Below are positions 27,471 to 31,633 of a DNA stretch of 41,887 nt, piece after piece (the first letter of the stretch is position 1; each line of letters opens with the position of its first letter). The DNA comes from Candidatus Woesearchaeota archaeon (GTDB lineage Archaea > Nanobdellota > Nanobdellia > SCGC-AAA011-G17 > JACPNG01). The position numbers were made by a program, and so were the translations under genes. The DNA lies in NCBI GenBank assembly GCA_018303365.1, contig JAGVYI010000005.1, positions 1 through 41,887 on the forward strand, written 5' to 3'. The notes under the pieces were generated by a model. It was not told where the DNA came from and did not search any database. It saw nothing but the letters and a program-made list of their open reading frames with translations.

Positions 27471-29273
27471 CTAATATTTACTTTTGAGTTTTAGTCTTGG
27501 ACTGATACCTAACGCTCTAAGTTCGTCAAGTAGCAATTTAAATGCATAGCTAAGTTCGATAGGATTAATTTCAACATTCCCGCCGCAACGTGGACAAAAC
27601 TTTCTGTTCTTGTAAGCATCATAGACAGCAAGCATACCGCATTGCTCACAGATATACAGAACAGTTCGGTCTGAATCAAATCTCTCTTTAAGTAAGAGTG
27701 ATGCACCATGAGCAACAAAACAGTCTTTTTCCATCTCTCCAAGGCGAAGACCGCCACCGCGTGCCCTTCCCTCAATAGGTTGGCGTGTAAGAAGCTGAAT
27801 ACGTCCAGAAGCACGGGCATGTATTTTGTTTGCGACCATGTGTTTTAATCTCATATAATACATATTTCCAACAAAAATTGTTGCTTCGAGTTCTTCTCCA
27901 GTAATGCCATTGTAAAGTTTCTCTTTTCCATCTTCTCTAAAACCAAAGGAAAAAAGCTCTTTTCGAAGAAGTTCTGGGCTTTCAGAACTAAAACTTGTTC
28001 CTTCAGGATACCTTCCAGAAAGAGATCCTACTTTCCCAGCAAGCACTTCAATAAGATGGGAGATTGTCATTCTGCTTGGAAGACTGTGTGGTGAAAAGAT
28101 AAGGTCCGGTACAATACCACTAGTTGTGAAAGGTAGGTCTACAGCTGGAACAATTGCACCAACAACTCCTTTTTGTCCATGGCGAGAAGCAAATTTATCA
28201 CCTACCTCAGGAGCCCGTAGATGACGCAATCTGACTTGCACAAGTTTATTTCCTTCTTGATTTTCAGTAACAAGGACCATATCAACAGTTCCAATCTCAC
28301 CATGATTAACAACAGTAGAACTCTCTCGTCGAACATTAGCAGCAATACTAAACTCCTCAAGGTCACCAAGGAATCTAGGAGGACTTGTCTTTCCAATAAT
28401 GACATCATCCTCCTTTACTTCGATACCAGGAGCAATAATCCCATCTTCTTCAATAAGGCGATAATCTGTCTCTGAACGGTATCCTTTAATCTCTTTATTA
28501 GGAATACCAATTTCATCAACAAGACCACCAGCATACCTTAATTCTTCAGTAGTATAGGGTCTAAAGAATGTGCTGCGTGCAAGACCACGCTGGACAGAAT
28601 CCTTATTAAGAATAATAGAATCTTGCATATTATAACCTTTATAACTCATCAGGGCGATAGTTACATTTTGTCCTGCAGGATGTTGGTCATAAGCCGCAAT
28701 ATCATGCATAAATGACCTCGTGATTGGTCGCTGGGGATAATGAAGAATACTCGCATCAGTGTCCATACGGATAAGATAATTTGAAGCATAAAGACCAAGC
28801 GACTGTTTTTGAGTTTTTGAACCACGGTTGAGGCGTGTTGACTGGCCATAATTTGCATAAGGGACAAGAGAAGTAGTAATACCAAGAATGATATTAGGAC
28901 CTATCTCAAGATGAGTATGGTCCTTTGTCAATTCGTTTTCACTAAGTGCAATATAAGAATTTTCTTCCTCAGAAGCATCAAGGTACTCTATAATTTTTTG
29001 GCTAATAAGGTCTTTCCATTTTATCTCCCTGTTTTGCAGCTTTTTGGTATGCTCTTGAGTAAGTTTGCTTTCCCCATCTTCTACGATTATAAGTGGACGA
29101 CGGCAGCGGCCCTTGGTATTGTCAAGGTAGACATCCCGATTTACTTCATCAAAGAACACATTAAGTGTTTCTGGAAGTTTTCCAATACGCCGGTCATCTC
29201 TAACCTGCTTAACAAAAGCCTGAGTATCCTGCACTTCACCAACAAATTTCTCATTCAAATAAACGTCTGCCAT
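27471..29273 (-). CDS. rpoB1: RNA polymerase subunit B' (C-terminal half of split B)
   Basis: GDKFASRHGQKGVVGAIVP, GRARGGGLRLGEMEKDCFVAHGASLLLKERF, zinc motif CEQCG...CPRCGG. Confidence 0.97.
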   Translation of the reverse strand: MADVYLNEKFVGEVQDTQAFVKQVRDDRRIGKLPETLNVFFDEVNRDVYLDNTKGRCRRPLIIVEDGESKLTQEHTKKLQNREIKWKDLISQKIIEYLDASEEENSYIALSENELTKDHTHLEIGPNIILGITTSLVPYANYGQSTRLNRGSKTQKQSLGLYASNYLIRMDTDASILHYPQRPITRSFMHDIAAYDQHPAGQNVTIALMSYKGYNMQDSIILNKDSVQRGLARSTFFRPYTTEELRYAGGLVDEIGIPNKEIKGYRSETDYRLIEEDGIIAPGIEVKEDDVIIGKTSPPRFLGDLEEFSIAANVRRESSTVVNHGEIGTVDMVLVTENQEGNKLVQVRLRHLRAPEVGDKFASRHGQKGVVGAIVPAVDLPFTTSGIVPDLIFSPHSLPSRMTISHLIEVLAGKVGSLSGRYPEGTSFSSESPELLRKELFSFGFREDGKEKLYNGITGEELEATIFVGNMYYMRLKHMVANKIHARASGRIQLLTRQPIEGRARGGGLRLGEMEKDCFVAHGASLLLKERFDSDRTVLYICEQCGMLAVYDAYKNRKFCPRCGGNVEINPIELSYAFKLLLDELRALGISPRLKLKSKY

Positions 29274-29274
29274 T

Positions 29275-30765
29275 TTACCTGATAATATTAAGACCTGCCC
29301 CCTGCAATGCTTTTTTTATTTTATCCTCAGATTGTGTTTCTGGAGTTATACTGGCGAGAATGGCAAAATTCTTTCGAAGACCAATAGAGGTTCCCTCAGG
29401 AGTCTCAATACAACACAGCCTGCCCCAGTGGGTTGGATGAAGTGCGCGTGCTTCAAAGTTCTCCTGCGTTGCACTAAGCGGGGACACAACACGTTGAAGA
29501 TGAGAAAGGGAAGCAAGGAAATTAACGCGGTCCATATTCTGACTAATTCCCTTCCTACCTCCAACCCAAGCACCTGTCGCCATAGCACTTTGGATGCGGG
29601 AAGTAAGGAGCTTTTCACGTATAAGGTTTCTAACTGTAGTATATTTTCCTCGTTTAACAAGACGCTGGAAGTTATACAGGATATCGTTGATAAGTATACG
29701 CAGATTTACGCGAAAAAGCTCTGCAACCAAGTCACCACTAAGTTTAAGAGTCTTATTACTATAGTGGTCTTTATCAGTAGGCTCGGCACCTTCTTTTGTA
29801 ACAGAGAAAAAGCGTTTGATGATTTTACATAAATTATAAGCCTTAATAATGCGGTCAGACGGCTCAACACCAAGATGGGGAAGCAGATAACGGTCAAGGC
29901 TTTCCCTTGTCTTTTCGATTTTTATTTCACGTGCTTGGGTAATCCCAATCTTCTTTGCAATAAACTCAAGTGCATCTTCTTCGGTTTTTAACTCAAGTGC
30001 CTCATAAAGATTAATAAAAATATCATCGTACTGCTTATCTCCAGAGATAAAATGATTTACTTCTTGGTCACGGGTAAGACCTAAGGCTTTAATAATTGAA
30101 ATGACTGGTATTCGTTTAAAGCGAGTAAAAGTAAGATAAATCATGCCATCTTTCATCTGTTCAAGTGTATGGGAAATACGATATGGACCATACTCAGAAA
30201 ATAATTTTGCGCTGTATCTACTTGGTCCAACTTTATTCTCTTGGATAAAGAGTTTATTTGAAGCAAGGTCTTCAACAGTAATTAATACACGTTCATTACC
30301 ATTAAGAATGAAATATCCGCCAGGGTCATCCGGGTCTTCATTCTTAGAAAGAAGATCTTCACGCTTAAGACCGTTAAGGTGACAATATTTTGATTTAAGC
30401 ATAATTGGTAAGCGCCCAACTTCACAATTGAAAGCCTCACGCTGCACTCCATCAATATGAGTACTCACCTCAAGAAACATTGGTGCTGAATATGTAAGTT
30501 TTCTAAGCCTGGCTTCCATAGGATATACATCGCGTTTACTGCCATCAGCCTCAATAAGAGAAGGTTTTGTGATCCAGATTTTATCAATCTTTATTTTAAA
30601 TTCTTGAACATCTGGGGGTATAACTGTGGGAACAATCTCGCCCATGCTCTGGACAATTTTTTGCATCTGAACATCTAAAAAGTTATTAAAAGAAAGTATA
30701 TTTGACTCTACAAAGGAGTGTTCCTCAAAATACCTTCTAATAAGCAGTTCGCTTGTCTTATCCAC
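29275..30765 (-). CDS. rpoB2: RNA polymerase subunit B'' (N-terminal half of split B)
   Basis: GGYFILNGNERVLITVEDLASNKLFI, ARALHPTHWGRLCCIETPEGTSIGLRKNFA. Confidence 0.97.
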   Translation of the reverse strand: MDKTSELLIRRYFEEHSFVESNILSFNNFLDVQMQKIVQSMGEIVPTVIPPDVQEFKIKIDKIWITKPSLIEADGSKRDVYPMEARLRKLTYSAPMFLEVSTHIDGVQREAFNCEVGRLPIMLKSKYCHLNGLKREDLLSKNEDPDDPGGYFILNGNERVLITVEDLASNKLFIQENKVGPSRYSAKLFSEYGPYRISHTLEQMKDGMIYLTFTRFKRIPVISIIKALGLTRDQEVNHFISGDKQYDDIFINLYEALELKTEEDALEFIAKKIGITQAREIKIEKTRESLDRYLLPHLGVEPSDRIIKAYNLCKIIKRFFSVTKEGAEPTDKDHYSNKTLKLSGDLVAELFRVNLRILINDILYNFQRLVKRGKYTTVRNLIREKLLTSRIQSAMATGAWVGGRKGISQNMDRVNFLASLSHLQRVVSPLSATQENFEARALHPTHWGRLCCIETPEGTSIGLRKNFAILASITPETQSEDKIKKALQGAGLNIIR

Positions 30766-31038: not shown

Positions 31039-31156
31039 TGGGCCGGACGGGACTTTCACCATATAGGTTTTGAACCCGCGACCACCTGCTTAAAAGGTTC
31101 ACCACCAAAGCAAGGCTAAGGTTCAGGTGCTCTAATCCAGGTTGAGCTACCGGCCC
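31039..31156 (-). tRNA. tRNA-Lys (TTT) with two introns
   Basis: Exons 31156-31124, 31097-31069, 31052-31039; introns 31123-31098 (26 nt, at 30/31) and 31068-31053 (16 nt, at 59/60). Spliced: GGGCCGGTAGCTCAACCTGGATTAGAGCACCTGCCTTTTAAGCAGGTGGTCGCGGGTTCAAATCCCGTCCGGCCCA. Confidence 0.92.
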
Positions 31157-31158
31157 AA

Positions 31159-31259
31159 CGCCCTGGCCGGGAGTCGAACCCGGGTCCCGGCCTCGACAGG
31201 GCCGGATGATTGGCCCATGATACCATTTGAACCATGCTAGGCCACTACACTACCAGGGC
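31159..31259 (-). tRNA. tRNA-Asp (GTC) with a D-arm intron
   Basis: Exons 31259-31238 and 31209-31159; intron 31237-31210 (28 nt). Spliced: GCCCTGGTAGTGTAGTGGCCTATCATCCGGCCCTGTCGAGGCCGGGACCCGGGTTCGACTCCCGGCCAGGGCG. Confidence 0.92.
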
Positions 31260-31510: not shown

Positions 31511-31633
31511 TCCCCACCCCAGGATTCGAACCTGGAACCCCATGGTATCAGCTGGTCATACGTCATCTCTTGTCGTATGGACATCTCAGTACGACTTCTA
31601 CAGCCATGTGCTCTACCATTGAGCTAGGTGGGG
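31511..31633 (-). tRNA. tRNA-Tyr (GTA) with an anticodon-loop intron
   Basis: Acceptor CCCCACC/GGTGGGG, anticodon arm CATGG-CTGTAG[51-nt intron, ~31597-31547]A-CCATG, T arm CCAGG-TTCGAAT-CCTGG. Confidence 0.9.

Follow-up and report, generated by a model that had tools for sequence, protein, structure and literature searches.

A predicted tRNA-Lys(UUU) gene split by two bulge-helix-bulge introns at non-canonical positions in a Woesearchaeota genome with a single detectable alpha-type EndA

The window analysed here, the whole stretch of 41,887 nucleotides of Candidatus Woesearchaeota DNA, carries at 31039-31156 on the minus strand what its sequence identifies as a real tRNA-Lys(UUU) gene interrupted by two non-canonically placed bulge-helix-bulge (BHB) introns. 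A functional gene, whose transcript would form two BHB hairpins for excision by EndA and for ligation by RtcB and archease, is in our judgement the best explanation of this locus, and we give it a probability of about 0.93. The gene would add a further clear case to the known archaeal tRNA genes with several introns, one that standard searches overlook; in the open-licence papers on tRNA introns in Woesearchaeota or DPANN we found no report of these introns.

Results

The gene and the tRNA genes upstream of it are arranged in the window as follows.

31039..31156, minus strand: tRNA-Lys(UUU) gene, precursor part, 118 nt; the mature 76-nt form is a complete cloverleaf
31124..31156, minus strand: exon 1 (tRNA positions 1-30)
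31098..31123, minus strand: intron 1 (30/31), 26 nt; a strict BHB, found by the splice scan and in the unconstrained MFE fold
31069..31097, minus strand: exon 2 (tRNA positions 31-59, anticodon UUU)
31053..31068, minus strand: intron 2 (T-loop, 59/60), 16 nt; its sequence forms a strict BHB, with the central helix absent from the MFE fold
31039..31052, minus strand: exon 3 (tRNA positions 60-73)
31159..31259, minus strand: tRNA-Asp(GUC), 2 nt upstream of tRNA-Lys and in the same direction
31210-31237, minus strand: D-loop intron of tRNA-Asp, 28 nt, at about 21/22; relaxed HBh'
31511..31633, minus strand: tRNA-Tyr(GUA), farther upstream than tRNA-Asp, with a 51-nt intron in the canonical 37/38 region

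Joining the three tRNA-Lys exons gives GGGCCGGUAGCUCAACCUGGAUUAGAGCACCUGCCUUUUAAGCAGGUGGUCGCGGGUUCAAAUCCCGUCCGGCCCA, a 76-nt product with a 7-bp acceptor stem, the anticodon arm CCUGC-CUUUUAA-GCAGG and a T-arm, and ARAGORN recognises this spliced form as a standard tRNA-Lys. The coordinates, intron boundaries, lengths, pairings and product are those that a sequence-only reading of the window had put forward, the strand being minus. Also on the minus strand, at 27471-30765 of the window, two neighbouring genes, of 600 and 496 aa, apparently encode RNA polymerase subunit B, judged by eye from the translation; this subunit is split into two genes in many archaea.

Both introns had been said to follow the archaeal BHB rule, and by sequence they do: in each, 3-nt bulges on opposite strands, with a 4-bp helix between them, lie at the exon-intron junctions, and both motifs are of the strict hBHBh' form. 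Intron 1 pairs through the outer helix GAG/CUU (3 bp, one of them G-U), the central helix CACC/GGUG and the inner helix ACC/GGU; the corresponding helices of intron 2 are GGG/CCC, UUCA/UGAA and CC/GG. When the 118-nt precursor is folded without constraints (MFE -45.8 kcal/mol, z -2.4), the BHB of intron 1 is complete, with its 3-nt bulges and 4-bp helix. At intron 2 a symmetric 6x6 internal loop replaces the UUCA/UGAA helix, at -11.1 kcal/mol compared to -8.7 kcal/mol for the BHB form, a gap of 2.4 kcal/mol in favour of the loop. Because the fold prefers this loop, the predicted BHB of intron 2 is backed by sequence and comparison rather than by energy.

The intron of the neighbouring tRNA-Asp has a central GGCC/GGCC and an inner CAU/AUG helix, without an adjacent outer helix, and its site in the D-loop is also intron-bearing in L111, L113 and L114. 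When introns are allowed, ARAGORN calls this gene as a tRNA-Pro with an intron, which is a misreading. Elsewhere in the genome, an intron of about 34 nt interrupts the T-loop of the tRNA-Ala(TGC) that adjoins the 16S rRNA gene (G000:C9:21471-21528, L030), approximately where intron 2 lies in tRNA-Lys. Two introns each are apparently present in tRNA-Ile(GAT) (G000:C17:49000-49611, minus strand) and tRNA-Ile(TAT) (C13:51317). One intron each is present in tRNA-Thr(TGT), Ala(GGC) and Leu(CAA), and, with less certainty, introns are found in Ser(GCT), Glu(TTC) and Thr(CGT).

The unspliced tRNA-Lys(UUU) gene was missed by ARAGORN, and the Rfam tRNA model, at its gathering threshold and at E<=10, called neither this gene nor the neighbouring tRNA-Asp as a tRNA; for tRNA-Lys, the failure of both programs is presumably due to the insertions. 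Of the tRNA scans, a kind of check suggested in the sequence-only reading, Rfam and ARAGORN alone miss the gene, and it is found when splicing precedes the scan. A strict BHB candidate had a 4-bp central helix between outer and inner helices of at least 2 bp each, two bulges of 3 nt and an intron of 10-129 nt. The 702-kb genome contains 83,521 such candidates; every neighbouring pair of them, 377,289 in total, was excised and the product scanned with ARAGORN. This double-splice scan recovered tRNA-Lys(TTT) with exactly the 26-nt and 16-nt introns. As that number of candidates illustrates, helices of 2-4 bp are individually common, and one could suppose that the pairings arose by chance and that the insertions are errors of assembly or sequencing. 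However, the same scan returned no tRNA from the reversed genome and 0, 0, 0, 0 and 1 tRNAs from five Markov-shuffled genomes, that is, 0-1 matches in each of six control genomes, and the same sites are intron-bearing in independent assemblies of other genera. The control genomes and the orthologues already refute chance or error as an explanation, and we assign it next to no probability. Some of the single- and double-splice matches reported by ARAGORN are spurious and overlap intact tRNAs, for example Lys-CTT at C8 and Gly/Glu at C17.

An intact second tRNA-Lys(TTT), which according to the sequence-only reading would make the present copy a pseudogene, was looked for with Rfam, ARAGORN and BLAST and was not found in the 702-kb, 91%-complete genome, and the sole other Lys gene found is an intact tRNA-Lys(CTT) at C8:39696. 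The codon AAA is read by the UUU anticodon and makes up about 50 per 1000 codons in the long stop-free frames of the genome. As AAA is both common and decoded by this anticodon, the tRNA-Lys(UUU) gene should be essential. The gene at 31039-31156 is probably the only tRNA-Lys(UUU) gene of the genome, although an intact second copy leaves a small doubt because the genome is only about 91% complete. It is this incompleteness that gives room to the idea of a decaying pseudogene, with another tRNA-Lys(UUU) doing its work; we find that very improbable, as no second copy was found, the mature sequence is a perfect cloverleaf, and orthologues in tens of genomes share the architecture and maintain the helices.

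These orthologues were collected within the order by BLAST, using both the gene and the mature tRNA as queries, and were then aligned on both strands with a purpose-written spliced aligner. Introns are present in 41 of the 55 distinct tRNA-Lys(TTT) genes, at 30/31 (n=25), 37/38 (n=23), 59/60 (n=14) and 53/54 (n=1), a few being ambiguous; 24 genes have two introns, and two genes, L110 and L133, have three (30/31, about 37/38 and 59/60). Among the tRNA-Lys(CTT) genes of the order, 8 of 16 contain introns. The aligner rewards BHB pairing and is to that extent biased towards BHB; with the reward turned off, 69 of 80 introns came back with unchanged length and a shift of no more than 3 nt, 50 of them at the identical place. 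Judged by these alignments, intron-bearing tRNA-Lys(UUU) is widespread in the order.

The introns at 30/31, compared in 29 genes, vary in length from 13 to 108 nt and are highly divergent in sequence, most of them with the 3' end GGUGAA or GAUGAA, and pairing in the central helix holds in 115 of 116 cells. Five genes have the exon sequence CAUC rather than CACC; in three of them the intron has the matching A, so that the third central pair is T-A in place of C-G, and in two it has a G, which gives a T-G (G-U) pair. This covariation of the third pair has P = 0.004 in 2000 permutations, a figure that is uncorrected for relatedness and serves as a guide only. Such a pattern, a variable intron with a kept central helix, would be expected under selection for cleavage by EndA. 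Covariation was not demonstrable among the orthologues at 37/38 and 59/60, where the exon side is almost invariant, and many short introns in relatives leave no inner helix. The tRNA-Asp of one relative (L217 1391-1497) has a 32-nt intron at about 59/60, whose 3' end is GAAAG as in the Lys introns there, and this could hint at transfer of introns between tRNA genes.

The genome encodes one EndA (C5, about 185-190 aa), one RtcB and one archease, the latter two close together on C18. Identification of the EndA architecture, another check that had been suggested from the sequence, gave one single-domain protein of the alpha type. It is collinear with the Methanocaldococcus jannaschii alpha4 enzyme 1A79 over residues 19-185, with no insertion of more than 1 residue, and compared with this narrow-specificity enzyme it shows no Crenarchaea- or ARMAN-specific loop. 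Its closest solved relative is 3iey_A, the catalytic subunit of the Nanoarchaeum equitans (alpha-beta)2 enzyme (E 3e-41). The 80 nearest loci by EndA share 57-72% identity, and nearly all are labelled as Candidatus Woesearchaeota or as belonging elsewhere in Nanoarchaeota/DPANN; a few bear different labels (for example Methanosarcinales, Euryarchaeota and Aminicenantes) and look like mislabelled assemblies.

A search of the genome with an EndA-type profile of the clade found the alpha gene alone and no beta subunit, the best other frame having E 0.36. Of 40 relatives, 37 have a single protein that matches PF01974, and PF02778 gave no second protein above cut-off. Run against the PDB, the clade profile detects the N. 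equitans beta NEQ261 at 2.6e-15 and the short Pyrobaculum beta 2zyz_A only at E 0.58, and the Aeropyrum beta was not among the matches listed; it is possible that a very divergent or short beta subunit was missed. A broad-specificity heteromeric EndA, as in N. equitans and Crenarchaea, would then be formed by the alpha protein and a beta too divergent to recognise, which would agree with the kinship to 3iey_A and with the relaxed motifs in the adjacent tRNA-Asp and in relatives. We nevertheless consider this unlikely, since a profile similar to the one that finds NEQ261 so readily returns only the alpha gene, since PF01974 matches one protein in most relatives and PF02778 no second one above cut-off, and since the single-contig genome G062, whose tRNA-Lys(TTT) (L262) has introns at 37/38 and 59/60, also has one EndA. 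We infer instead that the single alpha-type EndA, presumably as an alpha4 homotetramer, cuts the tRNA-Lys introns. In the relative G014 (L115), rated 100% complete, tRNA-Lys(TTT) has two introns, yet neither PF01974 nor PF02778 nor the clade profile finds an EndA; as three congeners of G014 carry the gene, its absence is probably an assembly gap.

Discussion

In the mechanism that we propose, the transcript, probably an Asp-Lys tandem, would fold into two BHB hairpins, EndA would cut both 3-nt bulges of each hairpin, which would release one intron of 26 nt and one of 16 nt, and RtcB together with archease would ligate the exons. Intron 1 would probably be removed early, because its outer helix occupies D-stem bases 22-24 and because it keeps the strands of the anticodon stem apart, and intron 2, which sits on the T-stem, could leave independently. 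Transcription, cleavage, the order of removal and ligation of the tRNA-Lys precursor are all steps that we infer.

The sequence-only reading had associated introns at such positions with Thermoproteales and had stated that they require a broad-specificity splicing endonuclease. The setting turned out to be a different one, a genome of about 0.7 Mb from Candidatus Woesearchaeota (DPANN), and the need for a broad enzyme is unsupported for tRNA-Lys, because a non-canonical position differs from a non-canonical motif: both motifs are strict, and the only EndA found is a single-domain alpha protein without a loop insertion. According to reviews, strict hBHBh' motifs are also within the reach of narrow enzymes. 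Broad EndA activity may still be needed in the lineage, as suggested by the relaxed motif of the tRNA-Asp intron and by the many short introns of relatives that leave no inner helix, and not by tRNA-Lys.

With an intron-rich tRNA-Lys and a seemingly alpha-only EndA, the Woesearchaeota order is an apparent exception to the rule that EndA and introns co-evolve. Our tentative proposal, held at somewhat below even odds, is that in Woesearchaeota a homomeric alpha-only EndA, with neither a beta subunit nor a Crenarchaea- or ARMAN-specific loop, excises multiple introns at many tRNA positions, some of these introns having relaxed motifs. If true, alpha-only removal would add a so far undescribed way of excising introns broadly or irrespective of position, and intron richness would no longer be tied to the EndA subunit type as is now accepted. 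The order offers a direct test of the co-evolution rule, because it provides over 40 natural substrates at three fixed positions. That tRNAs may carry several introns is well known, recently also outside Thermoproteales (PMC11291895), which lessens the surprise, although the apparent mismatch between enzyme and substrate adds some. Furthermore, apparent tRNA gene loss in DPANN genomes may partly reflect multi-intron genes that were overlooked.

Among known systems, according to reviews, EndA of the alpha4 and alpha'2 types is narrow and accompanies few, single introns at 37/38, and the (alpha-beta)2 and epsilon2 types accompany non-canonical and multiple introns (PMC4090602, PMC6379350, PMC4033280); the nanoarchaeon Nst1, in which alpha alone was found and which is set against N. 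equitans, has only two intron-containing tRNAs (PMC3655853, PMC4033280). BHB introns that are multiple or non-canonically placed are found in Thermoproteales and are also reported from Korarchaeota, ARMAN and the Asgard Atabeyarchaeia/Freyarchaeia (PMC4033280, PMC8450103, PMC11291895). The Woesearchaeota tRNA-Lys genes resemble the Thermoproteales type in having up to three introns per tRNA, off 37/38 and with BHB motifs, and differ from it in their DPANN host, in the single alpha-type EndA without loop insertion that is all that can be detected, and in the concentration of their introns at 30/31, 37/38 and 59/60. In the related DPANN lineage of N. equitans, the trans-joined tRNAs are iMet, His, Lys, Gln and Glu (PMC3655853), so that there too tRNA-Lys is disrupted and rejoined, but from two half genes and with an (alpha-beta)2 enzyme, whereas the Woesearchaeota tRNA-Lys is one contiguous gene with cis introns. 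Like the alpha4 EndA of M. jannaschii, the Woesearchaeota enzyme is single-domain and collinear with 1A79; the difference lies in the many introns of this genome that are multiple or non-canonically placed, which reviews do not describe for alpha4 species (PMC4090602). The few, single introns at 37/38 that go with alpha4 enzymes are not the pattern seen in the genome or in the order, and they are a correlate of that enzyme type rather than its defining property.
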